DNA of 57,880 bases, from the IMG/VR virus record IMGVR_UViG_3300033388_001119, positions 1 to 57,880 of that record; one strand, 5' to 3'. The stretch's first letter is position 1; the number at the start of each line of letters is the position of its first letter. This document shows positions 27,568 through 47,528 of this stretch, in pieces. Origin of the DNA: a virus. The translations under genes and the position numbers were made by a program. The notes beneath the pieces were generated by a model. The model had not been told where the DNA came from. It did no database searches and saw only the letters and a list, made by a program, of their open reading frames with translations.

Positions 27568-28371
27568 ATGATAAATGAAATAAGAAATACAGTCCTCTCT
27601 TTACTTAATAAAAATAACAACGGGTACCTCACTCCTGAAGAGTTTAATTTATTTGCAGCTCAAGCGCAGTTAGAGGTTTATGAGTCTTATTTTTATGACC
27701 TAAATAATTGGATTACTAAAAAAAACATGCGTAGATCGCACTCGGGGAGCGCTGATATAACTAGACAGCTCGAAGAAGTTATCGACACATTTACACAGTT
27801 CACCGAGTTAACTAGTATTGTAGGAAGTGATCAAACGTTTCAACTACCTGAAGACTGGTACACAACTGTAGAGGTTTTACGTAAAGAGGTTTGCGAAGGA
27901 CCTCCTACTACTATTATAGAGAGAACTGCCGAAAGAGTTAGTGAGTATAAAATAAGAGAACTACTCAGAAGTAATCTTACAGCTCCTACAGCTACTTTTC
28001 CGGCATATATATTTAGTCAACAAGGTGTGGCATTACCCGAAGGTACAGGAACATCTGCATACGGAAATTTAGGAAATCAAATTACACTTTACCCTGGACC
28101 AAGTAATTGCCCAGGCCCAGTTCTAACTTGTTTTTTATCTTACTTAAGATACCCATTAACACCAAAATGGACATATAGTTCTATTGGACCAGATGGAGAC
28201 CCTATATACAATCCTAGTGCAGCTGATTACCAAGATTTTGAATTACCATTATCCGACTCTATAGATATAACTATAAAGATATGTGAATACGCTGGCTTAA
28301 GTATTAGAGAGAAAGAAGTTATACAGTTTGAGGCTATGCAAGAACAACAGCAACAACAACAAGAATCTTAA
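27568..28371 (+). CDS. Neck/adaptor protein candidate
   Basis: A 267-residue protein. The N-terminus (residues 1-45, LLNKNNNGYLTPEEFNLFAAQAQLEVYESYF) is a helical segment typical of ring proteins that sit under the portal in podovirus-type phages. The middle has FQLPEDWYTTVEVL and the end a poly-Gln helix (residues 257-264). It precedes the second neck protein and the tail hub. Role inferred: portal-to-tail adaptor. The residue 18-27 stretch resembles an EF-hand loop, but a calcium role is unproven. Confidence 0.75.
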   Translation: MINEIRNTVLSLLNKNNNGYLTPEEFNLFAAQAQLEVYESYFYDLNNWITKKNMRRSHSGSADITRQLEEVIDTFTQFTELTSIVGSDQTFQLPEDWYTTVEVLRKEVCEGPPTTIIERTAERVSEYKIRELLRSNLTAPTATFPAYIFSQQGVALPEGTGTSAYGNLGNQITLYPGPSNCPGPVLTCFLSYLRYPLTPKWTYSSIGPDGDPIYNPSAADYQDFELPLSDSIDITIKICEYAGLSIREKEVIQFEAMQEQQQQQQES

Positions 28372-28374
28372 GAT

Positions 28375-29289
28375 ATGAATGATATAACCTACTACACTAA
28401 TAATGGTCAAAACCCTACTAACTTAAACTGGGGAAGCTATCAGTATGTATCATTAGAGGATATTGTTAGAAATTTTGAGTTAATGTTTGCTGGTGATGAA
28501 AACCTAGTAAGTAAACAAAACAGATATGTAATTAGATTTCACGCTAAAAGAGGAATCCAAGAAATAAACTATGATGCATTAAAGAATATTAAAATATTAG
28601 AGATGCAGGTTTGCAAAGACTTGAAGTATGTATTACCTCCTGACTATGTAAACTATGTAAGAATATCTCTATATGAAGGTGGTGTATTGTATCCTTTAAT
28701 TGAAAACTTTCAAACTAACTACTCATCAGCTTATCTACAAGACAACAACTGTGAAGTCCTATTTGACTTAGACGGAAACGCCTTAACCCCAAACAACTCT
28801 ACAATTGATATGCAGAGAATAAAAGGGGTAAGACCAACGCTTTATTTAAATTTAGGACACCCCTACCACGAAAGAATGGGGTATTGTTGTGACGGCTTAT
28901 GGTATTTCGACTATGGAGTAGGAGCTCATTATGGCTTAGAAACTTCTTTAGCTAATCAAAACCCTAACTATAGAATAGATAAAAGAGCAGGTGTAATTAA
29001 CTTTAGCTCAGATATGGCAGACAAGTTAGTGGTTTTAGAATATGTATCAGACGGTTTAGAAAAAGGAGATGATGACGAAGTGGTGATAAATAAATTAGCA
29101 GAAGACTATTTATATGCGTACATTAGATGGGCGATATTAGGAAATAAACTAGGAGTTCAAGAATATATTGTTAATAGAGCAAGAAAAGAGAAGACGGCAA
29201 AATTAAGAAACGCTAAAATAAGGTTAGGAAATCTTCACCCAAGTAGATTGCTAATGCCTTTACGTGGCAGAGATAAATGGATTAAATGA
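28375..29289 (+). CDS. Neck/tail-tube ring protein candidate
   Basis: A 304-residue protein. Residues 30-90 (ENLVSKQNRYVIRFHAKRGI, INYDALKNIKILEMQVCKDL, YVLPPDYVNYVRISLYEGG) follow the order of a conserved ring protein in podovirus-type phages, including crAss-like ones, that caps the portal or lines the short tail. The C-terminus is basic and helical (IVNRARKEKTAKLRNAKIRLGN). It starts three bases after the adaptor gene and overlaps the tail hub start as ATGA, so stoichiometry may be tuned by coupling. Confidence 0.78.
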   Translation: MNDITYYTNNGQNPTNLNWGSYQYVSLEDIVRNFELMFAGDENLVSKQNRYVIRFHAKRGIQEINYDALKNIKILEMQVCKDLKYVLPPDYVNYVRISLYEGGVLYPLIENFQTNYSSAYLQDNNCEVLFDLDGNALTPNNSTIDMQRIKGVRPTLYLNLGHPYHERMGYCCDGLWYFDYGVGAHYGLETSLANQNPNYRIDKRAGVINFSSDMADKLVVLEYVSDGLEKGDDDEVVINKLAEDYLYAYIRWAILGNKLGVQEYIVNRARKEKTAKLRNAKIRLGNLHPSRLLMPLRGRDKWIK

Positions 29290-32200
29290 AAACTACCGGG
29301 ACTTTTACTTCAGGCATAATGAATAAGGATCTCGATGAAAGGCTCATACCAAAGGGTCAGTATCGAGATGCTTTAAATATAGGGGTTTCTACTTCAGAAG
29401 CCTCTAACGTAGGAGCTATAGAGAACATACTAGGAAACGTTCAAGCTGGAGGAGATTTATCTTTTTTAACAGATGACGCTGTTACGATTGGAGCTATAGC
29501 TCAAGGAGATAAGGAACAATTTTTTTGGTTTGTAAGCGACACTAATTTTGATTATGTTTTAAGATACCATGAGCCATCCGACACCACCGCTATACTCTTA
29601 AAAGACACTAAAGGCAGGGTGTTGAAATTTGATAATGAACACATAATAACAGGTGTTAATTTAATAGATGATTATTTATTTTGGACCGACAATTTAAATC
29701 AACCAAGAAGAATATTATCCACTAGAAGTTTTCCTTTAGACGGGTTTGAAGAGGATGATATTAGGGTAATAAGGAAACCACCTTTAAGTCCGGCAACTTT
29801 TATAATGAATAATACTTATCAAGGGACAACAACGCCTTCGTCTGATATTAGGTTTGATAAAACAAATAATATTATACATAAGTATTTTAGGTTTGGTTAT
29901 AGATGGAAATATGAATACAATGAGTATAGTTCGTTGTCACCATTTACCGCTACTGCATTTCAGCCTTTTTTTTATTTCTACAATTATGCCAATGTGAGTT
30001 TTTATTCCATGCAAAATACTTTTGATGAGATTGTATTAAGTGATATAGAAACAGGAGATGAGCAAGTAACAGATATTCAGGTTGTTTTTTATGACGAATA
30101 TACCGGGTCTGTTTATGTGGTTGACACTTTTGATAAGGAAAAAAATGGATGGGGTAATAATACTTCGATTTCCATTAATTTCAATAATAATAAAATATCT
30201 GCACTTTTAGCTAATGATGAAATCACAAGATTATTTGACAACGTACCTTTACGTGCTAAGGCTCAAGAAGTTATTGGAAGCCGATTAATATATGGTAATT
30301 ATGTTCAGGGTTATGACATAAGAAATACTAGAAATGAACCTATAACTATAGATTTTTACGCCGAACCCTTTAGTGTTGATTTCAACTCCCTTACTCTTGG
30401 GGCTAACCCATTTAGTGGAAATTATCCTAGAAGAAGTTTTCATAGCAATCGAAACTATGAAGTAGGGTTAGTTTATTTAGATGATTACGGAAGAATGTCT
30501 ACGGTTCTTACTCCTGAAATACTAAACACTCAGTTTACTAACACAGTAGCAATGGACCCAACCACAGCTACCACTATAAATGACATTAGGGTTTATATCA
30601 ATAGCGAGCCCCCACAATGGGCTTCAAAATATAGAATTTACTTAAAACAATCAGACGCTAATGATTATGTAACTATATGGCCTTTGTTTTCTATAAAGAC
30701 TGGAACAGGTGATTATTGGTTTAAGATTTTAGGGTCTGACGTAGACAAGGTTCCTGAAGGAGCTTATATTTACATTAAAGCCATTAATGGAGTTGCTTTT
30801 GACAGCTCAGAGGAATATAAAGTATTAGAAGTTAAACAGCAAGAAGAAGGTTTTGTTCAAATAGGAAACTCAAACTCAACAGTTGACGCTCCAGCTGGAA
30901 CTTACTTTAAACTACACTCAGAATACGTAGACTTATCTACAGATATAAATGTTTTCGATTCCCAGCAAGTAGATCAAGTAGCTCAAGGTGCTTATTATTG
31001 GGGGTACAGAAATTATGATACTTTTGGAAAATACATAGGGCCATTAACAACAGACCCTGGAGTTGGTTCTTCCGTAATTAACGCAGCTACCGGTGGTTTA
31101 CCTACACAACACATTAAACAAATAGACCCTCCAATTTATTATGGTAATAGTGGTTATTTCAACGAAATAGAACTTAGAAAAAACTGGAAAGCCTCTCCTT
31201 ATGAGACCGATTCTACCAAGGATAGAAGGATTAAAGTTCAGATTTATCCAAATGAAAAATTCATGGTTCAGTTGATGAATAATAGCGGCAACTGGTATAA
31301 TTATCAAACTTGGCAACCAGTTGATATTGCTCCCTACGTAAATAGTGACTACTTAATCGGGGACTCAGGTAATGGAATATGGTGCTATATACGATTTAAT
31401 AAAGGAACTAATTACGTTCCAGGGGATTATTTTATAATAAACATTCACACAGCTTTTGGAGCTAATGTTTTTGGACAGGTACCTGGGGACGATACAGAAG
31501 GAAGTGGAGCTCATTATAAAATATATGAATTTCAAGCGGCTAAATTATGTCTAACGGCTAATCTAGAAGACGGAGGAAGTGCTGATAGTGTCTACGGGTT
31601 ATCACAACCGATGAATGGTTTAAATACCTACCTCCCATTAAGAGATGTACCTATTGAGCCTGGTGCTATAATAGAGATAACTATTGCAGAAGATTATACG
31701 GTGGGGCCAGTCACTAATAACACTATTGGTGATACTGAAACAACCTACACTTCACCACCGTGTTCTAAGCGCTATAAAAACATAGAAGAATGGTGGTATG
31801 AAGAAGAGATATGGAGAGATGTAGAACACAAAACGGCTTACAAGTATCAACAAGACAGCGATATGAGTAGCTTTCAAAATATTAATGGAAAAAGGTTTTT
31901 CTTTAGGAGACTGCTTAATTATAAGTCCTTAGATTGGCAAAGTATTCCTGGAGCAACCGCAAGTGCCGCAATATTTGGTGGTATGGCATATACCTCACAC
32001 GTTGGTGATTTTACTTTAAAAAATTGGTGGCAAGCGTACTCAAACAGAAGTCCACTTGATGATGGAATGGGTAATTACGCCACCTATGCTGAAATGGTTA
32101 CTGAAGAAAGCGGAATTCAAATGTTTGTTTCATCTCAAGGGACTCATATTCAAGAATTTGATACCGATAAGAGAACTGTGATTCAAGTTGCAATGCAGGG

Positions 32201-35200
32201 AAGGGTAAAAATAATACAAACCGCTCCTGATGCTAAACCGATATTAGAAACTAAACCCACCATGGTGGATAACGACATTTTCCATGAAGCTCCATTTACC
32301 TTTGATGTGTTTCCAGGAACAGCAGGAAGACTTCTTCATGAGGGTAATATCGCTAATCAATCTCAAGGAGGTAATCCGGCTATTATTAGCTTAAACCCTT
32401 CATCTACCATATCTAACCCATCATACCCTTTAGACCCAACTCAATTTAATAGTGAGTTTAATTGCTTCACCTACGGAAATGGCGTAGAGGCTACTAAAAT
32501 AAAAGGAGAATTAAGCGAGGCTCATCTTAAATATAGCCCTAGGGTTAGTTCTTTTATTGAAAAATATCAACAAGAATATTTACCGAGTAGCTTAACCTAT
32601 AGTGGGGTTTTTGTAGAAAACACAAATATTAACAACTTAAACGAATTTAATCTTTCCTTAGGTAATTATAAAGACTTAAGTAGAGAGTATGGTCCTGTTG
32701 AAAAACTTCACGCTAGAGATAATGATTTAGTGGCCTTGCAAGAGGATAAAGTATCTAAAGTGCTATATGGTAAAAACTTACTTTCTGACGCCACGGGAGG
32801 AGGTTCTATAGCTTCTATTCCAGAGGTATTAGGAACTCAAATACCATATGTAGGAGAATACGGAATAAGTAATAATCCTGAAAGTTTTGCAGCTTGGGGT
32901 CCTAATATGTTTTTTACAGATGTTAAGAGGGGTTCGGTAATGAGGTTAGGTAGAGATGGGTTGTTTGAGATATCTAATTTAGGTATGACAGATTACTTTA
33001 AAGATTTGAGTTCTAATGAATTTAATAAACAAAAACTAGGATGTATTGACCCATTTAAAGAGCAATATGTTTTATCAAGTACAGAAACTCTAGCGCCAGC
33101 ATGTACTTACTCTTTACGCCCTACATTTATACCTAGGTTCCCTAGAGTAACTAATGGCATTGATTATATCATAGAACTATTTTCTTCTGGAAATTGGCTG
33201 GTAGAGTTTACAGATACCGGTGATGGTACCAACTGGCTTACGGTGAATGGACAAACTCCTTCGTTAGGTGGCTTTGGAGATGAGGTTTTAACATTTAACT
33301 TAACTAACAACGGAGGGCTACAGTCTCCCTCTAGAGAGTGTTTGGTTACATTTACATTTTGTGATGGAAGTACAGCGTCTGAAGTGTTTAAACAATCAGG
33401 AGCGCCAAAATTAGGAGGCTTAGTGTATGGTGTTGGAAAACCTACAGGAGGTAAAAAGGGCCTTGCAACTGGCTTAAAAAACACAACAATTAACTTTCAA
33501 GTAGAAGCTAACCCAGGTGGTTTAGTGCAAGAGTTTATTAACCAACCTATAGGAGTTGATGCTGAGGTTGCAACTCAAAAAGAGACAGTAGGTATAGAAG
33601 GAGAGGACGGTGTTCCAACTAATGGCCAAGATGTAACTATAAGAGCATCTCAAGTAGGTGCTGTAGATACGTTACCATTCTGCTTTCTTTTAGGGCAAAA
33701 AATGTATTATTTAGTTTCAGACACGTTCTATACATCTACCCAAATAGATGAGTTAATAAATGACCCAAACACCGTAGAAATAACTCCTACTCTTAATGTT
33801 GGGACACAGTTATGGGAAGGAACTTATACTTTTAACCGACCTAATGATGAAGCTTATGTGTATAATGTAATAGACTATCGTGCACAAATAGAAGCGTCTG
33901 CTACAGCGCAATTCGATATACCTCTAGAAATGAACAATGTAGCTGACACATTTAGAGGAAAAGTTGATTTTACAAACAAAAACGGAAACGTAGAGTTTGA
34001 TTACATAGCTCCAGCTGGTGGCGCTAGATTTAGAGTGTTGATAGAAGATAGAGTTATAAGTACAACTGGTAGTGTTCCGGTAATAGGAGCAGGGTCGATG
34101 CCTATTTTTAATGTGCCGTTTGATGGCCCTTCTGTTTACGATGTAGAAATAGATTATCTAGGAACTAATGAAGCGGTTAGATTAATTACGCCTCTTCCCA
34201 CTTTAACAGAGTTTAAGTATCAAGTAGCCACAGGCAGTTTAGACCCTACTGATCCAGCTTACGTGTGTTCAGCGATACCAGCGTATTCTTCTAAGTGGCA
34301 TGATGGAACAGCAGCACTTCCTGAAATTGGAAATATTATATATGAAAACCCATTTGGAACTACGCCGATGGTATCTCCTTTAAATATTCACCCTATAGAT
34401 GAAAACCCCGTAGTTGGTGGTAATCAAGAGTGGCTTAAGTTTGATGCGTCATCTACAGGTAAGGTTTTACAAAGAGGAGTGTGTACCCCATGTGCGGAAG
34501 TGGCGGTTCCTGTGATTACTGTTCCAGCTGTATATTCATTTAACACTAATGAAAACGTTAATATCCTACTAGAAGCTACAAATAACCCCACCTCTTTTCA
34601 AATTGTTAGTTCATCACCATGCGTAGGTTATTTATTGAGCTCTCAAGAAGGGGGTGTTGTTTCTTATACTGATTGTGATGGTAATGCAGCTTCTATAACT
34701 ATTCAAGGGACTAATACTAATTCTAGAAACGCACCGGCTTTACCAGCAGTTAATACAAATGATATAACTATCGTGTCTACCACAGTTCCTGTTGTTTCAA
34801 GTGGAAATGTTACGGTTGTAAATAAAGGCTTCAAAACAAACACGCCACAAGGCATGGATTTTGACGGAGAGCAAGGTAGAATTGTTATACCTAACGCACC
34901 GTCAGGAGTTTATGATTTCGAGGTTAGGGCTAGTAACTGCTTTGGAACAAGTAATACTGTGTCTGTAGTAATGGAAATAACAGATAATGTAACGAAAATG
35001 TTCCAAATGGATATAGAAACACCATCACCCACTTCAGCTATAGCTTGTAGCATAACAGCTAGTTATATCCCTATGTTGCACACAGGAGACAATATAAACC
35101 CTCAAGTTAACGACACTATAATATTACCTAGCCCAGATAAGGGTAAGCCAAATACAACAGCCTATGGAGGTTTTGGTTTAGAAAAAGGTGTACTAGAGCC

Positions 35201-35321
35201 TAATTATGATTTCAAAGGGGGTTATAATTGGTATAAAGCTAATTTTGATAGTGGACCAGGAAATGGAAGTGTATTATTAATAGACAACACTGGGGTTGTT
35301 ATAGAAATAGTTGAATGTTAA
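29286..35321 (+). CDS. Giant tail hub/needle-type protein with BACON-like domain
   Basis: A 2011-residue protein. It starts with GIMNKDLDERLIP and GQYRDALNIGVSTSE, a signature of the P22 gp10-like tail hub (the crAss-phage muzzle relative). The repeated-blade region continues to SVMRLGRDGLFEIS and a QYVLSS end near residue 1265. From about 1271 to 1368 a BACON-like carbohydrate-binding domain follows (GNWLVEFTD, NWLTVNGQT, LTFNLTNNGG, VFKQSG). Residues 1400-2011 are further Ig/beta-type modules. The usual end of this family, the GWTSF section, is on the next gene. Expected role: closes the short tail and contacts surface glycans. Confidence 0.85.
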   Translation: MKTTGTFTSGIMNKDLDERLIPKGQYRDALNIGVSTSEASNVGAIENILGNVQAGGDLSFLTDDAVTIGAIAQGDKEQFFWFVSDTNFDYVLRYHEPSDTTAILLKDTKGRVLKFDNEHIITGVNLIDDYLFWTDNLNQPRRILSTRSFPLDGFEEDDIRVIRKPPLSPATFIMNNTYQGTTTPSSDIRFDKTNNIIHKYFRFGYRWKYEYNEYSSLSPFTATAFQPFFYFYNYANVSFYSMQNTFDEIVLSDIETGDEQVTDIQVVFYDEYTGSVYVVDTFDKEKNGWGNNTSISINFNNNKISALLANDEITRLFDNVPLRAKAQEVIGSRLIYGNYVQGYDIRNTRNEPITIDFYAEPFSVDFNSLTLGANPFSGNYPRRSFHSNRNYEVGLVYLDDYGRMSTVLTPEILNTQFTNTVAMDPTTATTINDIRVYINSEPPQWASKYRIYLKQSDANDYVTIWPLFSIKTGTGDYWFKILGSDVDKVPEGAYIYIKAINGVAFDSSEEYKVLEVKQQEEGFVQIGNSNSTVDAPAGTYFKLHSEYVDLSTDINVFDSQQVDQVAQGAYYWGYRNYDTFGKYIGPLTTDPGVGSSVINAATGGLPTQHIKQIDPPIYYGNSGYFNEIELRKNWKASPYETDSTKDRRIKVQIYPNEKFMVQLMNNSGNWYNYQTWQPVDIAPYVNSDYLIGDSGNGIWCYIRFNKGTNYVPGDYFIINIHTAFGANVFGQVPGDDTEGSGAHYKIYEFQAAKLCLTANLEDGGSADSVYGLSQPMNGLNTYLPLRDVPIEPGAIIEITIAEDYTVGPVTNNTIGDTETTYTSPPCSKRYKNIEEWWYEEEIWRDVEHKTAYKYQQDSDMSSFQNINGKRFFFRRLLNYKSLDWQSIPGATASAAIFGGMAYTSHVGDFTLKNWWQAYSNRSPLDDGMGNYATYAEMVTEESGIQMFVSSQGTHIQEFDTDKRTVIQVAMQGRVKIIQTAPDAKPILETKPTMVDNDIFHEAPFTFDVFPGTAGRLLHEGNIANQSQGGNPAIISLNPSSTISNPSYPLDPTQFNSEFNCFTYGNGVEATKIKGELSEAHLKYSPRVSSFIEKYQQEYLPSSLTYSGVFVENTNINNLNEFNLSLGNYKDLSREYGPVEKLHARDNDLVALQEDKVSKVLYGKNLLSDATGGGSIASIPEVLGTQIPYVGEYGISNNPESFAAWGPNMFFTDVKRGSVMRLGRDGLFEISNLGMTDYFKDLSSNEFNKQKLGCIDPFKEQYVLSSTETLAPACTYSLRPTFIPRFPRVTNGIDYIIELFSSGNWLVEFTDTGDGTNWLTVNGQTPSLGGFGDEVLTFNLTNNGGLQSPSRECLVTFTFCDGSTASEVFKQSGAPKLGGLVYGVGKPTGGKKGLATGLKNTTINFQVEANPGGLVQEFINQPIGVDAEVATQKETVGIEGEDGVPTNGQDVTIRASQVGAVDTLPFCFLLGQKMYYLVSDTFYTSTQIDELINDPNTVEITPTLNVGTQLWEGTYTFNRPNDEAYVYNVIDYRAQIEASATAQFDIPLEMNNVADTFRGKVDFTNKNGNVEFDYIAPAGGARFRVLIEDRVISTTGSVPVIGAGSMPIFNVPFDGPSVYDVEIDYLGTNEAVRLITPLPTLTEFKYQVATGSLDPTDPAYVCSAIPAYSSKWHDGTAALPEIGNIIYENPFGTTPMVSPLNIHPIDENPVVGGNQEWLKFDASSTGKVLQRGVCTPCAEVAVPVITVPAVYSFNTNENVNILLEATNNPTSFQIVSSSPCVGYLLSSQEGGVVSYTDCDGNAASITIQGTNTNSRNAPALPAVNTNDITIVSTTVPVVSSGNVTVVNKGFKTNTPQGMDFDGEQGRIVIPNAPSGVYDFEVRASNCFGTSNTVSVVMEITDNVTKMFQMDIETPSPTSAIACSITASYIPMLHTGDNINPQVNDTIILPSPDKGKPNTTAYGGFGLEKGVLEPNYDFKGGYNWYKANFDSGPGNGSVLLIDNTGVVIEIVEC

Positions 35322-35322
35322 A

Positions 35323-36090
35323 ATGCCAGTAACAATAACATATAGTCAAGGTGCAAAAGGGTGGACATCGTTTCACTCTTATTTTCCTCAATGGTTGTTG
35401 GGGATGAATAGTTCTTATTATTCTTTTTATAAAGGTAAGCCATGGAGACACTATCAAAACCCTATAAGAAACTCTTACTACGATAGCCCTACATTCCCTT
35501 CTATTGTAGAGTTTATTTTAAACGAAGCTCCTTTAGAAACTAAAATGTTTAAAACTCTAGAGCTAGAAGGTACGGATGCTTGGACAGCTGGTTTAGTAAG
35601 TGATTTACATATAGGTCAAATAAATAAAGATTATTTTGTACAAAAAGAAGGGGTTTGGTTTGCTAACATTAGGAGAACTCAAGAACAAGGGGCCGCATCT
35701 GATTTATCTCAAATATCTGCTCAAGGTATTGGTGAGTATGATACTTTTGTTACGGTAGGAACTGAATTGAAAATAAACTTTTTAACACCTATTAATCCTA
35801 TAGTAAGTATAGGGGATGTGGCTTTTGAACAAAACACTCAAACTACTACTTTAGAATTAGGACCCATTACTGACATTGTAGGTAACTCTATTATTATTGA
35901 TCCGTTTATAAACATCCCTTCTGTTCCGTGGAATCCACCAAGTGAGAATGTTATTTTTGCTGTTAAAAATTCTGTCGCAGAAAGCTATGGTTTACGTGGG
36001 CATTACGCTAAAGTTTACTTAACAAACATTAATCCTGATGAGGCAGAATTATTTGCAGTTAGTAGTTCAATATTCAAGAGTTATCCTTAA
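35323..36090 (+). CDS. Detached C-terminal section of the tail hub (GWTSF protein)
   Basis: A 255-residue protein from the ATG at 35323; the in-frame TTG at 35311 is inside the previous gene and less likely. The start (ITYSQGAKGWTSFHSYFPQW, then YYSFYKGKPW) and the segment FPSIVEFILNEAPLETKMFK, LELEGTDAW match the part that normally lies at the C-terminal end of P22 gp10-like/crAss muzzle proteins. Here it is a separate gene one base after the hub's stop, while about 750 residues of BACON and other modules occupy the expected place in the hub. Probably both chains assemble together in the tail. Confidence 0.7.
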   Translation: MPVTITYSQGAKGWTSFHSYFPQWLLGMNSSYYSFYKGKPWRHYQNPIRNSYYDSPTFPSIVEFILNEAPLETKMFKTLELEGTDAWTAGLVSDLHIGQINKDYFVQKEGVWFANIRRTQEQGAASDLSQISAQGIGEYDTFVTVGTELKINFLTPINPIVSIGDVAFEQNTQTTTLELGPITDIVGNSIIIDPFINIPSVPWNPPSENVIFAVKNSVAESYGLRGHYAKVYLTNINPDEAELFAVSSSIFKSYP

Positions 36091-39224: not shown

Positions 39225-42200
39225 ATGAGTGTAAACAATTTTTTAAACGACTTTTATGTAGAAAATACTGGTCAAGCTCCAACAGAAGAGATGGTTACTA
39301 GGATTACTCAGCAATACGGAGATAATTATGACGGTTTAATTAATGACTTAGCTATAGAGATTGGGGGAGCTAAAGAAGTAAATACCGATATAATAAATAA
39401 GATAAAGACTCAATACAATTTGATGAGTGTGAACAACACTCCTAACACTCCTGACACTCCTGTAAAAAAAAAAGGAGAAACTATTACTACTCAAGAGGAT
39501 GTTATGGTTTCCGATTCAAATGGAGAGGAAGATATTATTTCATCGGACTCTTTAGAAGTTCAGCCAACAACTGATACAGACCCACCTAATAAAGCTTTTG
39601 GTAGAGTTAGCGATAAGGATGTGTACGTAAGCGAAAGTTCACCTGAGGTAAAATTCAATCCTATATATAAAGGTCAACAACCATCTACTCATTTAATGAG
39701 GGCTGAGCAATTAGAGAATGGTGATTGGGTTGGATTCCCCTCTTTAATGCAAGATAAAAACGGAGATTGGATTAATATGTCTTATTTACCAGATGAAGAT
39801 TGGGAGCAAATATATAAAAAAGCAGACGAGTTAGGAGAGGTGGTTAATTTTGGTAGCGATAAAGAATCGGCTTTAGCTTATGGTGAAGGCTCATGGAAAG
39901 AGAGTTATAATAAAGGTGAACATTCAGAAAGTTTATATGAGAAGAAAATAGCAGCTGATACCAAAAAGCTTTTGCAAGAACAGAGTGACGCTATTGAAGA
40001 GGAAGCGAAAGAAAGGCAAGAAAGGGAAGACTCTAGAATGGAAATTACCAACACCGTTGGTTATGATGATGGTCCAGGTAGTACATTTGGAATGTATAAA
40101 ATAGAAATACCAGAGTATACTGACCTTGCAGACCCTAAAAGAGATTATGCAGCTAGTGTTATAGGTGAGCTGTATGAGGGGACCCTAGGACTTAATGACG
40201 ATGGTAGTTTAATTATGCCTACTCCAAACCAAATGATGGGTGGTGATAATATTTTTTATTACGGACCTCAAGAAGCTACCGCAATGATTCAAGCGTTTAG
40301 TGAAGATGGTTTTTTTGGAGATGATAAATGGACGCTTAAGCAGATGTATGAGAATAATCCAGTTAATAACTATATGCAAGCTCAATACAATAACGGAGCT
40401 CAATCATATGGAAGTATAGATGGTTACATGAGAAGTAAGTATCCTGGTTATAATTCTATAGCCGACACACATAAAGAATATGAAGGTGGTAATTACGGTA
40501 TAAAAGATTGGGATAATATTTCTGAAGATGATGCTAACTTTATTAGGATGAAGTTTAATTCTAGAGCAGGAGATTTAACTATTAATAGCGCTAACACAGC
40601 TGATAAAAATAACGCTTACTTAAGAGCTGGACTATACGATTTAAAAACAGACATCACTTATGAGGTGACTAAACTAAATGCTTTAAATCAAGACTTATTG
40701 TATAACAATTATACTATGGCAGCTATTCCTTTAGAGGAGTTAAGTAAAAATGAAAAGAAGCAATATGAGGAAAACATGCGTAAAATGCTTGCGCTAACAG
40801 CTGATTATAATATGGTAAATCAAGAATGGGCTAACCTTCAAGAACCGGACTTACGAATGTATAACCCATTTACAAATCAACTAATAGATGCCTCAAATCC
40901 TAATTCTCAATTGATAGGGAATTATAATGATAAAATAGACGAAGAGGCAGCTAAGCTTGCTATAGAAAAGAATCCGAAAGAACTGCAAGAAGCTTTTGAT
41001 GTGAACTATCAGCATGTAATGAACTTAGCGAAGAAGATTAAATTAAACTATAAATACAACAAACCAGTAACACATAACGGAGTAACATACCAAAAGGGAG
41101 ATGTTATTGATAGAACTAATTTACAAGTAGTAGCTGAGTGGATGGGCGAAATGGGTGGGGTAAATGAGTATGAAGACCTTGCAATGAACCCATTAGCATT
41201 AGTGTCAGGTCAGCCTACAGAAGATTTAATAGACATGTTCCCTGATCCAGAAGCGGTAGTAGCCTCCGCTGGGTTTCCTATGATAACTAGTAACACGGAG
41301 ATAGCTATGGAATACAATAGGGCTATTTATGAGCTAGCAGTAATCAATACAGCGTTAAAAGAAAATAGAGACCCTAGTAAACTACAAAAGGGAGAAAGCA
41401 TTGTGACTGGTTCTTTAATTGGCTCTGGGCGTGTAAAAAACAACGGAACCTTAGATTACGTTTATAATAACATGGATGAAGGTGATAATGAGTTACCTTT
41501 TTATGTATCTACCCTAGCCGAAATGGATAAAACACTACCTGAAACTGCTAGGTTTCTTAATAGAGTTAACGAGGGGTTTTGGAGCACATTATATGGAGAT
41601 GCTACAGGAGAATATTTATTTGGAAACGTTTATAACCAAGCAAGCTACCTTTCTACAGCTCTTGATAAAGTAGGACTAGAGGGTAGTTACATAGACGACT
41701 TAAGGACTAGGTCACAACCAGATAATATAGATTTTGCAGGTGGGTTAACAGGAACTGTATTTGGAATAGTTTTAGAATTTGGTGGAGCACAGGGATTATT
41801 AAAAGCGCCAGCTGCTATAGCTGAAGGTGTTATGGCTACTGAACTTTTAACCGTAGGAGGAGCAACTGAAAAGGTTACTAGGGGATTAACATATACTAAT
41901 ATAGATAAAGTCTTTGGGTCTGCTTATGAATTAAACAGACTGAAGTTGATATCAGGTGGTAGCCCATACACTATATTTGGTAGTAATGTAGTATTAAGGT
42001 CCATGCAAGGTGGTATCGAGTTTGGTACAACAGGATTAGTCTTAGATAAAACAGATGAATATAGGTGGCGAGATGGGTTAGCTTTTGGTGCTGGTTATGG
42101 AATATATAGTGAAATGGGAGCTCTTATTAGTAGAAGCCCGTCATACCAAAAAATATCTCAAAAGGTAAATGATTTTAAATACAGTTATACCCCGTCCGTA

Positions 42201-45200
42201 GGTGTATATAAAAAACCAAGTATCCTTCAAAGAATCAAACAAGGAGGTATCGGTACAGCTCAAGCGACTACAAAAGTTGCAGGAAGCGCCGCTATTGGTA
42301 CAGGTATTTCGTATGCCATAGAGTTATTTGATGAAACAATTTCTCCTGACGACCCCTTAATGGCCGAGCAGCTAAACAACTTACCAGAGGAGATTCAAGG
42401 AAACTCTAAAGCACTAACTACTTTTTACACATTTGCAGGATTAGGACTCTTAAACAAATCACTTGGTAAGCAATTAATGACAGACATAAAAGGTTTAAAA
42501 CCATTTGATGTATCCTTTAATCATTTCTTTAGAAGTCAAGAAGCTTATCGTGCTTGGAAGAATAAACAAGGAACTCCACAAGGCATGAAGCTACTAACCG
42601 AAGGCGCTAAAGATGTAATGGAGAATGGAACACCAGAACAAAAACAAAACTTAAAAAACCAAGAAGCTATATCCTCGTATAATAATGGTTTAACTGAGGC
42701 GAAAAATGAAATATATAAGTACGATAAAAAAGTAGAGGATTATAATAATTCTATTTCTGTTGTTAATAGTGTAAATAACAACCCTTCTAAAAAACCAAAC
42801 AATATACCTGTAAAGCCGGTGCCTAACGCTCAAGGAGACGGAGAGATAGAGGTTCCTGACAATGGAACTGAAGAAGGTAACTTGCAGAATATTGAAAATA
42901 TTATTTCCACTCCATCGAAAGATTTAGAAAACGCAGCTAAAGGAGAAGTGAAAGATGGAAACATTTCAGAAGAAAATGGAATGAATGGAATAAACGCTGT
43001 TCAAGATGTGTTAGCCACTAATAGTAAAGTAAAAGGAATTCAGAACACTAAAGTTAGAGCTAGAGCGGTCCAAGCACTACAGACTAAGAAAGAACTACAA
43101 AGAGAGTTAGATAAATTAAATGAGGACCACAAGAATGGTGTGGTGGCTAACTTTGAAGCAGAAAAAAAGAATCTAGAGGAAAAGATTAAAAACGTTGATC
43201 AACAAATTACTGAAATAGAAAGCTACGAAGAAACAGAAGCTGACTACGTAACTGACTTAATTAAAAATAAAGATAGACGCAATCACGATGTTAGTGGACC
43301 TGGAATCCCAGGGTTAAAGGAAAAGTATCCTAAGTTAGCGGAGTTCTTACAACAAAAACACGCAGAAGGTATGACACCTGTAGAGGCGTTAAAAGAATAT
43401 CAAAAGCAACCGCCTGAGGTTACAGAGGTTGAGTCAAAAGCAGAAGTTGTAGAGGGAGAGGGTGGCGCTCCAGTTAGTGGTAAACAGGACTTACCGACAG
43501 CATCAACTGAACAGTCAGCGGAAACCACACAAGAGAGTAATCAAAATGTAGAAGAAGTTGTACAAGAAACTGCACAAGAAACAGTAGTAAAACCTTCTAA
43601 ATTTACTTGGGATCCAATCCAAGAAGCATTTGTAGAATCAACTCCTCCCGAAACTTTAGAAGTATCTGTTAGTGGTAATTTTGATGGCTTAAGAACACAG
43701 GGGAAAGAGACTATGGATTTACGAGGTGACGCTAGAGGTAAAGATGGTGAGATAATAGAAACTAAAAACAAAGAAGGCGAAACAGTTTTAACCTTAGTAA
43801 AAGAAACTTACGACGCTGAGGGGAGACCTGGATATGTAGGCGTGTCAGTTACTTTACCTGAAGGTAGTACTAAAACAGCTGATGATGTTAGAGCTGAGCT
43901 AGAGAATCAAATGAATAAACTAACTAATGGGGAGGATATTTCAGGAAAAAGTTTTAGTAATATTAATGATTTAAACCCCTCAGCTGTAGATAAAAATGTA
44001 GAATTTAAAACACAAGAAGATGCCATTCAAGAGCCAAGCGCAGAGAGCGTACCTGTACAAGAATCACCCGGAGATAGCGAAGCGGTGGTCGAAAGCGTAC
44101 CCGAACCAGAGGTCGCTCCCGAAAAAGTTGAAGTCGAAGAAAAAATCGAAGTTGAGGAGACGCCGAAAGAAGAAGTAATAGAAGCAGAGGTAGTTGAAGA
44201 GCCTGTAGTAGATAATAAGGAACCTAGACAACCTGGTAAAGTAGAACAACCACCTAAAAGAGGTTCTCAAATAGACCAAGACTTAGACGCTGTTATTAAT
44301 AGCGGCACGAAAGGAGAGGCTTTATTAAGACAAAACTTAGAAGCTAAAGGATATAGAAAAGACCAAATAGATAGAGCGATTAGAAGAAAAGATAGAGAAG
44401 CTTTAGTCGAGTTAAAAAATCTAAAGAAAGACTTACAGTTACAAGGTAAAGCTAATAAGAAGTATACTGTTAAAGCCACGGATGAATTTAAGAAGCAGCT
44501 TAAAGATGTTATTGATAGATTAGCCGGTGATAGGAATATAAAATTTACTAAAGGCGAACTAAATAAAATACTAGAAGCGGCTACAGGTACCGAAATGCAA
44601 GGTCTTAAAGTGGAAAAAGCGATAGAGAAAGCGGTGGAAGTGGTAGAGAAAAGTGTTAAGCGTTCATTAAATAACAACATTAATGACTTACTTAAACTTA
44701 AAAATGTAGAGAAAAAACAAGGAAAAAGAAAGGTAGGAAAAATTAGCATTGACTCTAGAAGACAATTTAACGACTTGAGAGATGAGTGGAAAAAAATTAA
44801 TCCTAAAGATTTAACTATAGGTGAAATGGAGGCTATAGAAACTGAATTAAGTAGTTTGATTTATGAAGGTAAACTAGCTGTAGAGCCTGCGCAACGCATA
44901 ATAAGAGACACTAGAAGAAGTGTTAAAGGTCAAGTAAATGAATCACTATACAGTGATCAAACTCCAAAGACAGATTTTAAAAACGGGGTACCTGACGTAG
45001 AAGCTTATTTAAAAGATAATACTAATAATTTTGTGATTATAAACGGTCGTCAAGTTAGTTCTGTCTCTGGGCTTAATGATTTTATTAAAGACAATCCGTT
45101 TGTAGATGTATCTCAAGCTAAAGGATATGTAGCTACTACTCCAGCAGAAGCAGCTCAAGCAGGTAGACCTAGCATATTAAGCGGTTTAAAATATTGGACT

Positions 45201-47528
45201 CTAGATAATTGGCAAACTATTAGAAATACAACTGCTAAACTGAGAGGTAGAGGAGGTAAAGCTGTTCATAAAAACGTGACATCTTTAATTGATAATATAT
45301 ATAGGTCGGAGTATAGGGAAATTGTAGGTAAACATCAAACTAGAGAATATGTGAGGAGTCAAATAAAAGACATCCCAGGCTACTCTAATAACAAACTAGG
45401 GAGAATAGAATTTAAAAACTACTTAACTAACTCGGCTCCAAGTAATATTACTACTAGTAAAAATTTAGACATAACAAACGACCAGGCGGTCTATATGTAT
45501 TTATTAGGAAAAAGAGATGGTGTAAAAAGATTGGAAGATAATAAGATAGACCCATTAGCTTTAAGTAATTATATAGAAAATAATCCAGCATTAAAAACCT
45601 GGGCTAGTAAAGTGGCTAAGATATTTGGTCAATATGGATATGATAGATATAATGAAAGATATGAGGTTATCACCGGTAAACCAATGCCAAAGGCTAGTGG
45701 AGAAATTACCGCTAGTATGGAGGGTGACCCTACAAGTGTATATATACCTATTCAGATAAATCCCGATGTAGCCCCTGTGGACCCGTTTGGAGAAAAGGGT
45801 GAAGACGCTCAATATTCAGGGCTTAACGTTTTGTCAGCTCACTTATTAGAGAAAACTAGTGACAGAGGAGCTACAAAAATAATTGGAACCATGGATGCTA
45901 TGGATAGATACTTTACTACTATGGAACATATGAGCGCTTTTTATGATGTAGCTCAACAATATAACAACATATTCAATCCTCAAGCTAGACCTCAAATGAT
46001 AAACATATTAGGAAGGGGAGGTTCTAATAAATTAGACAAAATAATGGAAGTTCTTAATGAGGGGATTACTGGAAACAGAAGAGTTACTATTGGAGATAGA
46101 GATAAAATAGATAAGACGATAACTCAAATTGGTAGATTTCCGGTCTTCTGGGGACTAGCTGGAAAGACTAAAACAATGATAGGACAAGCTAGTAGTGGTG
46201 TAGCCTATCCAAAAGAGTTCTTAAAATACTTAACCCCTAAGGAGTTAGTAGGTGGATACATGAATGTAGGTAAAGGGTTGATAGGTAAAGGTGCTTCTGT
46301 GGCACAACAGTTAGGTATTAAAAAACCCACTGATAAAAGAATTCTAGAGGAAGATACATTTTTCTTAGAAAAATGGGTAACCGACCCTCAGTTTGCTGAC
46401 AGGTGGAATAAAAATAAAATAGATCCCTTATTTCAAATACAAGATGTTGGGGGCGGAAAAGATTTATGGGATAGAGCAGCTAATGTGCTTCTTTTGGGTG
46501 TAAAAACAGGAGACATGATGGCTTTACAAATGGGTGTCGGTGGAACAAACGCCCTATATCATAAGTACATTAACGAAGGAATGAGTAAAGAAGATGCGTA
46601 TGATAAAGCGGCTGGTATTTATTACATGATAACTCAAGAAGCTCAACAAACAGGAAGTAGGCTAGGGTTACCAGATTACCTTAATAATAGGTTTAGTAGA
46701 GCAGGAATTACTTTTACTACTAGTATTAACTCTATAATGAATAAAGGAGTTGGGGGTGGAAAAGAGTTTTACTATAGAGGTAAAGATATGACTGGAGGTG
46801 AGAAACTTCACGCTTTAACAGACCTTGGTTTTTATACAACAGTTTTATCTGGATTATTCATATCCCTCGTGGGTCAAGATGATGAACGAGAAAAAGAAAT
46901 TGAAATGTTAAAGACAAGGTACCCAAACACTTTTGACGACAATCAGGCTACTACGAAAAAAAATATTTCTTTTGGACTAGACTTAATACAAAGTGATTTA
47001 CAAGGTTTAGGACCCGTTGGTGTTGTTGGGAATATGTTTTTAAACTCAGACGCTATTAATCCATTTGACTTTCATAGAGGTAAGCCTCAAAGTTTCAGTG
47101 AGCTACCTTTGACTTCTGCCGCAAAGAAAGTATATAATGCTATGGATGTAATGACTAACGCTAAAGGAGAAACTTATGAGGAAAAATATAACAGTTTAAG
47201 TGATTATGAAAAATATCAAGTAGATGCAGCTTATGGGGCTTTTGGTAAGTTCATGGAACGCATGGAAAAAGCAGGAAAAGGAGAAGTAAGTTTAATAGAT
47301 TTTATAATGGAAAGAGATGAGGATTATGGGTTAACAAGAAGACGAATGGAAGAGATGGATGGGGATAAGATATTAGATTGGGTGTATTATATGTACACTG
47401 GTATAAGACCTCCTCAAGAAGCAATAGGTGGTAATGCAGGCACAGGCTCTACATATAAGAAGACAGAGAGTAAATCTACTTACGAAACAAAAAGTAATTA
47501 TGATGAGGGAAGTACTTATGGTAATTAA
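39225..47528 (+). CDS. Giant internal virion (polyvalent-type) protein, 2767 residues
   Basis: Largest gene of the window. Residues about 140-245 carry a small module (STHLMRAEQLENGDWVGFPS, DEDWEQIYKKADELGEVVNF, AYGEGSWKESY) found in several phage internal or tail proteins. The stretch near 1385-1640 is a low-complexity Glu/Val/Thr linker zone. The C-terminal third (from about 1985) contains the layout common to ejected giant proteins (LLGVKTGDMMALQMG, NALYHKYINEGMSKEDAYDK, TQEAQQTGSR, a possible membrane segment YTTVLSGLFISLVG). The expected role is a T7 gp16-like core protein delivered into the host. I saw no lytic transglycosylase or polymerase signature. It ends the plus-strand arm. Confidence 0.75.
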   Translation: MSVNNFLNDFYVENTGQAPTEEMVTRITQQYGDNYDGLINDLAIEIGGAKEVNTDIINKIKTQYNLMSVNNTPNTPDTPVKKKGETITTQEDVMVSDSNGEEDIISSDSLEVQPTTDTDPPNKAFGRVSDKDVYVSESSPEVKFNPIYKGQQPSTHLMRAEQLENGDWVGFPSLMQDKNGDWINMSYLPDEDWEQIYKKADELGEVVNFGSDKESALAYGEGSWKESYNKGEHSESLYEKKIAADTKKLLQEQSDAIEEEAKERQEREDSRMEITNTVGYDDGPGSTFGMYKIEIPEYTDLADPKRDYAASVIGELYEGTLGLNDDGSLIMPTPNQMMGGDNIFYYGPQEATAMIQAFSEDGFFGDDKWTLKQMYENNPVNNYMQAQYNNGAQSYGSIDGYMRSKYPGYNSIADTHKEYEGGNYGIKDWDNISEDDANFIRMKFNSRAGDLTINSANTADKNNAYLRAGLYDLKTDITYEVTKLNALNQDLLYNNYTMAAIPLEELSKNEKKQYEENMRKMLALTADYNMVNQEWANLQEPDLRMYNPFTNQLIDASNPNSQLIGNYNDKIDEEAAKLAIEKNPKELQEAFDVNYQHVMNLAKKIKLNYKYNKPVTHNGVTYQKGDVIDRTNLQVVAEWMGEMGGVNEYEDLAMNPLALVSGQPTEDLIDMFPDPEAVVASAGFPMITSNTEIAMEYNRAIYELAVINTALKENRDPSKLQKGESIVTGSLIGSGRVKNNGTLDYVYNNMDEGDNELPFYVSTLAEMDKTLPETARFLNRVNEGFWSTLYGDATGEYLFGNVYNQASYLSTALDKVGLEGSYIDDLRTRSQPDNIDFAGGLTGTVFGIVLEFGGAQGLLKAPAAIAEGVMATELLTVGGATEKVTRGLTYTNIDKVFGSAYELNRLKLISGGSPYTIFGSNVVLRSMQGGIEFGTTGLVLDKTDEYRWRDGLAFGAGYGIYSEMGALISRSPSYQKISQKVNDFKYSYTPSVGVYKKPSILQRIKQGGIGTAQATTKVAGSAAIGTGISYAIELFDETISPDDPLMAEQLNNLPEEIQGNSKALTTFYTFAGLGLLNKSLGKQLMTDIKGLKPFDVSFNHFFRSQEAYRAWKNKQGTPQGMKLLTEGAKDVMENGTPEQKQNLKNQEAISSYNNGLTEAKNEIYKYDKKVEDYNNSISVVNSVNNNPSKKPNNIPVKPVPNAQGDGEIEVPDNGTEEGNLQNIENIISTPSKDLENAAKGEVKDGNISEENGMNGINAVQDVLATNSKVKGIQNTKVRARAVQALQTKKELQRELDKLNEDHKNGVVANFEAEKKNLEEKIKNVDQQITEIESYEETEADYVTDLIKNKDRRNHDVSGPGIPGLKEKYPKLAEFLQQKHAEGMTPVEALKEYQKQPPEVTEVESKAEVVEGEGGAPVSGKQDLPTASTEQSAETTQESNQNVEEVVQETAQETVVKPSKFTWDPIQEAFVESTPPETLEVSVSGNFDGLRTQGKETMDLRGDARGKDGEIIETKNKEGETVLTLVKETYDAEGRPGYVGVSVTLPEGSTKTADDVRAELENQMNKLTNGEDISGKSFSNINDLNPSAVDKNVEFKTQEDAIQEPSAESVPVQESPGDSEAVVESVPEPEVAPEKVEVEEKIEVEETPKEEVIEAEVVEEPVVDNKEPRQPGKVEQPPKRGSQIDQDLDAVINSGTKGEALLRQNLEAKGYRKDQIDRAIRRKDREALVELKNLKKDLQLQGKANKKYTVKATDEFKKQLKDVIDRLAGDRNIKFTKGELNKILEAATGTEMQGLKVEKAIEKAVEVVEKSVKRSLNNNINDLLKLKNVEKKQGKRKVGKISIDSRRQFNDLRDEWKKINPKDLTIGEMEAIETELSSLIYEGKLAVEPAQRIIRDTRRSVKGQVNESLYSDQTPKTDFKNGVPDVEAYLKDNTNNFVIINGRQVSSVSGLNDFIKDNPFVDVSQAKGYVATTPAEAAQAGRPSILSGLKYWTLDNWQTIRNTTAKLRGRGGKAVHKNVTSLIDNIYRSEYREIVGKHQTREYVRSQIKDIPGYSNNKLGRIEFKNYLTNSAPSNITTSKNLDITNDQAVYMYLLGKRDGVKRLEDNKIDPLALSNYIENNPALKTWASKVAKIFGQYGYDRYNERYEVITGKPMPKASGEITASMEGDPTSVYIPIQINPDVAPVDPFGEKGEDAQYSGLNVLSAHLLEKTSDRGATKIIGTMDAMDRYFTTMEHMSAFYDVAQQYNNIFNPQARPQMINILGRGGSNKLDKIMEVLNEGITGNRRVTIGDRDKIDKTITQIGRFPVFWGLAGKTKTMIGQASSGVAYPKEFLKYLTPKELVGGYMNVGKGLIGKGASVAQQLGIKKPTDKRILEEDTFFLEKWVTDPQFADRWNKNKIDPLFQIQDVGGGKDLWDRAANVLLLGVKTGDMMALQMGVGGTNALYHKYINEGMSKEDAYDKAAGIYYMITQEAQQTGSRLGLPDYLNNRFSRAGITFTTSINSIMNKGVGGGKEFYYRGKDMTGGEKLHALTDLGFYTTVLSGLFISLVGQDDEREKEIEMLKTRYPNTFDDNQATTKKNISFGLDLIQSDLQGLGPVGVVGNMFLNSDAINPFDFHRGKPQSFSELPLTSAAKKVYNAMDVMTNAKGETYEEKYNSLSDYEKYQVDAAYGAFGKFMERMEKAGKGEVSLIDFIMERDEDYGLTRRRMEEMDGDKILDWVYYMYTGIRPPQEAIGGNAGTGSTYKKTESKSTYETKSNYDEGSTYGN
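39435..39461. repeat. 9-bp tandem repeat x3 inside the giant virion gene
   Basis: AACACTCCT, AACACTCCT, GACACTCCT in direct succession encode an Asn-Thr-Pro/Asp-Thr-Pro linker, a likely slippage-made hinge. Confidence 0.85.

Follow-up and report, generated by a model that had tools for sequence, protein, structure and literature searches.

The viral genome analysed here is the whole of IMG/VR record IMGVR_UViG_3300033388_001119 (57,880 bases, hereafter the window), in which terminase, portal and tail genes are found in order and in which the tail hub is encoded by two adjacent genes on the plus strand. The first, an open reading frame (ORF) at 29286-35321, encodes a chain of 2011 residues (the N chain) and ends with a TAA stop at 35319-35321, and the second, at 35323..36090, encodes the GWTSF protein (the C part) from an ATG at 35323, the ORF itself being listed from a TTG at 35311. 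Stop and start meet in the motif TAAAATG (35319..35325), with the ATG one base on from the TAA. Residues 2-143 of the N chain matched Pfam crAss_MUZ (PF25731; E 1.2e-10, 40.6 bits, cut-off 27) and the chain matched phrog_14478 (E 1.9e-189); the C-part gene matched Pfam crAss_MUZ_C (PF25729; E 1.9e-13, 51.1 bits, cut-off 27) as a separate protein. Direct phmmer searches of the N and C parts against the PDB returned chance matches only. From the family matches, the window hub is identified as a crAss-muzzle-type tail hub encoded as two genes, and because it is not the single chain that crAss001 gp44 is, it is treated here as a split variant within that family, distinct from an ordinary muzzle. 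A preliminary description of positions 29286-36090, made from the sequence alone, had proposed a crAss-muzzle-type N-terminal part with the usual C-terminal GWTSF part as a separate gene; its coordinates agreed with the ORF positions, stop and start found here, and the Pfam matches bore out both assignments. A second contig, L009, is 99.76% identical to the window and keeps a constant offset through 36087, which places its single 29-base gap downstream of the hub genes.

The window phage and its kin belong to the podoviruses of Bacteroidota, the nearest named kin by hub being Pachyviridae, Pervagoviridae, Elemovirus and unclassified phages, in whose records Crassvirales is not listed. Unsplit hubs, in which one chain runs through the joint, are encoded by Cellulophaga phage phi38:1, Tenacibaculum phage Gundel_1 and the Flavobacterium elemo phages. 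Both halves of the window hub were homologous to these one-chain hubs on either side of the joint, with 36-47% identity just before the junction. Between the counterparts of window residue 1267 and the C part, the unsplit hubs have only 1-18 residues, compared with 744 in the window (residues 1268-2011), in agreement with the approximately 750 extra residues previously placed at the normal joining point. On the basis of crAss_MUZ, phrog_14478 and the alignment to unsplit hubs, the hub (muzzle) part of the N chain was assigned to residues 1-1267 (29286..33086) and the array at its C end to residues 1268-2011 (33087..35318). With hhalign (14 unsplit hubs against gp44; probability 94%, E 1e-7), the joint fell on a short turn of gp44, at roughly residues 1196-1202 (DVYFTYK-DH-CLCYSEL), and hence appears to align with the beta-turn near gp44 residue 1200. 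As the crAss001 muzzle is described as a seven-bladed propeller with an IG2 domain at residues 318-1021 (PMC10172136), the joint should fall in a late blade of the hub propeller. In most cases the C part begins no more than a few residues from the strand after the joint, and neither the frame nor the spacing at the split point is conserved in relatives.

Two other hub arrangements were seen among the relatives. In Maribacter phage Panino (L004:6001-9914) the hub is annotated as two genes, but the break lies elsewhere, near the counterparts of window residues 1144-1186, and leaves the C part fused to the hub; it might reflect a second split site, a frameshift or a sequencing error. L242 and L264, from a different lineage, have unsplit hubs that match the C part in its first half only, and L242 has several hundred more residues beyond it.

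The array was almost all beta in an AlphaFold2 model (mean predicted local distance difference test, pLDDT, 75.5), and a Foldseek search with the whole 754-residue model returned generic immunoglobulin (Ig)-array matches, no more specific than a beta-sandwich array. Six modules with approximate boundaries were distinguished on the plus strand. A BACON-type domain with its linker (residues 1273-1375, 33102..33410), assigned from the Pfam matches of relatives, a leave-out profile and its fold, is followed by module X (residues 1376-1534, 33411..33887), which carries a DYR motif, belongs to no Pfam family and was assigned by profile and by phrog_14478 positions 1254-1383. A beta-sandwich module (residues 1535-1639, 33888..34202) was then placed from the alignment and the model strands, followed by a phrog_21885-type module, Z1 (residues 1640-1735, 34203..34490), for which the phrog_21885 match had an E of 6.6e-5 in the window, 1.5e-12 in L037 and 7.1e-25 in L038. 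The putative Ig module (residues 1736-1901, 34491..34988) was assigned because He_PIG (PF05345) occurs at the aligned place in relatives (E 4.1e-11 in L066; 2.2e-4 in L011, slightly under the cut-off). The last module, Z2 (residues 1902-2011, 34989..35318), is probably a second copy of Z1, as suggested by its aligned position in relatives; several phrog_21885 stretches were found in L034, L037 and L038, and direct Z1-Z2 similarity within the window was weak.

A BACON-like domain had previously been proposed at about residues 1271-1368. The window copy gave no Pfam match at E <= 1, and a search of the window's own record for the BACON family found none. Copies aligned at the same position in relatives, however, matched PF13004 in 9 of 15 cases and PF19190 in 5 of 15 (5e-8 and 3.2e-7 for the L034 copy, both above cut-off), and a leave-out profile, from which the window and its closest kin had been excluded, recovered the window domain at E 1.3e-7. 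Modelled alone, the domain reached a pLDDT of 87.5, and its top PDB matches with Foldseek were 3zmr_B and 3zmr_A, the BACON-bearing BoGH5A (E 1.2e-5 and 1.7e-5; TMq 0.60); because further Ig-like folds (MSP, PapD-like) ranked close behind 3ZMR, the fold alone is unspecific. A real but diverged BACON-type domain at about residues 1273-1370 is therefore well supported by profile homology, with a consistent fold, and the earlier proposal holds. In BoGH5A the BACON domain has been proposed to act as a spacer (PMC11216935), a role that fits its place adjoining the hub, and by analogy the window domain may be a spacer rather than a binding part.

Relatives were collected in five scans of viral contigs together with phage records, giving 289 hub-bearing sources with the window included; more than 580 candidates encoding a relative were found in each scan, of which 80 were retained. 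Four of the scans were alignment scans with near-identical patterns and differing first sequences, some loci therefore repeat one contig with its ends set differently, and non-redundant counts were made at a 93% identity cut. A single-protein scan of viral contigs with the C part returned L009 only; the alignment queries gave useful sets. As the loci were picked by similarity to a few queries, the proportions given below describe a sample and not a census.

Both hub parts were visible in 119 non-redundant hubs, 102 of them split and 17 unsplit, making the split form the commonest among the sampled relatives; the two-chain hub is thus a widespread variant of a known hub and not unique to the window phage. 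Between the two anchors, all 102 split hubs had 307-2215 codons and all 17 unsplit hubs had 1-18, with no hub in between. A related hub with the same split and no insertion was found in none of the 102, and the smallest gap in the redundant set was 109 codons. A further 78 loci without a visible C part were uninformative, because 37 of these contigs end within the N gene and the rest end no more than 8 kb from it. The two genes lay within about 180 bases of each other in 29 of the 102 split hubs; in the other 73 more than 180 bases separated the halves, mostly as whole genes and up to 4.7 kb. The break was mostly located at the distal end of the array, directly before the C part, and in some relatives directly after the BACON domain or within the array, often with whole genes between. 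In seven loci (L040, L043, L046, L047, L049, L052 and L025) the N chain stops directly after BACON and module X opens the next gene, suggesting that the chain break shifts along the array. The preliminary description had read the locus as an insertion that also split the protein; that reading is supported by the association of insertion with split (102/102 against 0/17), with the qualification that the junction is better described as a cassette-accepting site that is always cut than as a single insertion by which a gene was broken.

One further locus, L142 (8811-9570), has an N part that ends 36 residues past the joint with module X in the next reading frame, where close relatives have about 370 residues, and this arrangement is probably a frameshift in that contig.

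Immediately beyond the joint, the 102 split hubs carried an Ig-type module in 80 cases, a BACON-type module in 19 and something else in 3. Two of these three, L094 and L096, carried long Asp-rich TSP3-type repeats, identified in L094 as PF02412 (E 2.7e-36) and recognised by eye in L096. When searched with a module X profile, none of the 27 unsplit loci gave a match, against 147 of 184 split loci, where the match lay in the N part. The distal modules varied, comprising He_PIG, Big_9, cadherin-like and phrog_21885-type modules and Thr-rich linkers. As unrelated contents were found at the same cut, it appears to be the site, and not the module, that matters. The TSP3-type repeats at the hub end of L094 (8769-12617) and L096 extend over about 700 residues and may possibly form a calcium-dependent rod.

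Taken together, the split hub is best explained as a propeller that is closed in trans by the C chain, with the freed end of the N chain carrying an array of surface modules tethered at one end, a reading to which we assign a probability of about two in three. The first chain would contribute everything up to one strand of a propeller blade and the second would begin at the adjoining strand and complete the hub, the turn that links both strands in ordinary hubs being replaced by the break. Past this break the first chain would run into the beta-sandwich array (BACON-type, X, a further sandwich, Z1, Ig-type and Z2), which would be tethered at one end and presumably displayed in six copies round the outside of the hub. 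Such an array may serve as a flexible surface appendage that makes contact with the host envelope and in which BACON is the spacer. Cutting the chain would make room for long, exchangeable arrays at a site otherwise confined to a very short closed loop. Closure by two chains would explain why C parts start near the strand after the joint, why contents vary with a constant cut, and why in Cellulophaga phage phi18:3 both gp114 (with the insert) and gp115 (the C-part homologue) are annotated as structural from tandem mass spectrometry (MS/MS), a status taken from the annotation in the public record.

Several points weigh against this reading. The mapping onto gp44 was made at about 18% identity, and a search of the PDB with the C-part profile retrieved no hub chain. 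Closure in trans is argued from sequence comparison, and host contact from domain types and their turnover. In many relatives whole genes separate the halves, and in several further split loci module X heads a gene of its own, so that a single tethered chain does not carry the array in every case. Finally, the number of independent changes of split state is small. On an unrooted tree of 44 hubs the state changed four times on the best tree (3-5 over bootstraps), a single change was found in 0% of bootstrap trees, and supported branches force at least two changes. With only 2-4 independent pairs significance is out of reach and, given two (supported) to four independent changes, the link between insertion and split is presented as a pattern that holds throughout and not as a formally significant one.

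The order of events bears on a first alternative, that the ancestor of this phage group already had the array and that the unsplit hubs are secondary re-fusions which lost it, in which case no insertion preceded the break in this lineage. Most split hubs share homologous core modules (Ig or BACON, followed by X), and the array of L045 resembles that of phi18:3 (44% identity), although the L045 hub groups with the unsplit phi38:1 (support 95/90); as the L045 and phi18:3 hubs are themselves 39.5% (N) and 40.9% (C) identical, about equal to the array identity, common descent, and not a recent transfer, may account for the likeness. Against this, the hubs of Crassvirales (crAss001, phi14:2 and others) are single chains across the joint without an array and would require further losses, and the TSP3-bearing clade of L094 and L096 has unrelated content at the same site. 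The single-chain Crassvirales hubs favour the unsplit form as the older state, although at about 18% identity over some 230 columns they are unreliable for rooting. With an unrooted tree and homologous core modules in most inserts, re-fusion in unsplit lineages is possible, and insertion may or may not have come before the split or brought it about; an ancestral array is considered unlikely, if a serious contender.

A second alternative concerns the function of the array, which might be a structural extension, such as a tail tip, a plug or a docking platform for other fibres, instead of a host-contact appendage. BACON and Ig domains are often spacers, and docking onto the tail is suggested for module X by its conserved position and by its occurrence at the head of its own gene. 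The distal modules, however, turn over and have adhesion-type folds (He_PIG, Big_9, cadherin-like, TSP3, Thr-rich linkers), and phage BACON repeats adjoining tail genes have been proposed to take part in host binding (PMC6949934). A structural role of this kind is judged rather improbable. It could also be supposed that the split is apparent only, a programmed frameshift or read-through of the stop yielding some product in which the N and C parts are fused, as the closeness of stop and start in the window (TAAAATG) and the 29 of 102 hubs within about 180 bases might suggest; however, adjacent cases show no constant frame relation (12/12/7), the spacing varies, reaching 4.7 kb among the 73 of 102 hubs with more than 180 bases between the halves, and gp114 and gp115 of phi18:3 are separate MS/MS-annotated proteins, so that this very unlikely explanation is largely refuted. 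An assembly or sequencing error, conceivable because IMG/VR contigs are metagenome assemblies, is refuted by the same arrangement in cultured Cellulophaga phages, many metagenomes and 102 non-redundant loci, and by the agreement of L009 across the junction.

The split hub with its tethered array can be placed beside several known systems. P22 gp10 and the T7 gp12 nozzle form a hub that has a propeller-type core and sits at the end of the tail, and we know of no array at this turn in either. The crAss001 muzzle gp44 belongs to the same tail-tip hub family and its alignment spans the joint, but it is one chain with a turn of about three residues at this site (Bayfield et al. 2023, PMC10172136). 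In the available part of that account the muzzle propeller is likened to T7, and variation in muzzle length is attributed to insertions in the crass and IG2 domains and not at the joint turn, with no mention of a split. A literature search of partial coverage likewise found no published account of a split hub, muzzle or stabilization protein. Phages phi18:3 and phi19:3 and their kin (Baltivirus; gp114 and gp115) are split at the same point and carry an N-chain insert with module X, but differ from the window in having an Ig-type first module, Big_9 and cadherin-like distal modules and an insert of about 500 residues, whereas the phi38:1, Gundel_1 and elemo hubs belong to the same family as single chains without an array. 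The BACON repeats of the crAssphage tail (PMC6949934) likewise represent a BACON-type domain in a tail-region gene, but are tandem repeats in separate proteins near tail genes, unlike the one BACON domain directly on the window hub.

A broader claim, held tentatively and at slightly less than even odds, is that one propeller turn serves as a general cassette site in Bacteroidota podoviruses, that long cargo at this site requires the cut, and that natural split propellers, completed in trans by a second chain, have been used repeatedly to mount one-end-tethered host-contact appendages directly on the tail gate, with cargo as unrelated as Ig, BACON and TSP3 arrays. Host recognition in podoviruses is usually ascribed to separate fibres and spikes; with adhesion-type modules mounted on the hub, the gate for DNA release, contact and opening could be directly linked. 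That neither a split without an insert nor an insert without a split was seen raises the testable question of whether a long insert in a blade is tolerated only if the chain is cut, and natural split propellers could serve as two-chain, self-assembling scaffolds. Annotation is also corrected, in that the GWTSF gene found after many such hubs encodes their missing C part and not an unrelated structural protein.

Glycosyltransferase-type genes were observed between the hub halves of some relatives (L165:12895-14115, L038:8668-9504, L046:11923-12834 and L013:6144-7073). That of L165 matched the GlcNAc transferase family PF11397 (E 1e-72); those of L038, L046 and L013 were alike, with at most a weak Stealth_CR2 match. 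Runs of at least eight Thr between the halves were detected by script in 6 of 7 loci with such a gene and in 7 of 95 without (Fisher p 8e-6, uncorrected for relatedness and with gene profiles seeded from some of the same loci), and the seventh gene-bearing locus, L038, has a Thr run that the filter missed. Self-glycosylation of the array is possible.

The genes flanking the hub in the window are also on the plus strand. Directly upstream is a virion structural protein (28375..29289; phrog_13977, E 2e-53), and next to it a ring- or adaptor-like virion protein (27568..28371; phrog_14543, E 2.7e-37, with a weak crAss ring 3/4 match of 0.0087, below cut-off). An ORF of 2767 residues at 39225-47528 closes the rightward gene block, and relatives have comparably large genes there.

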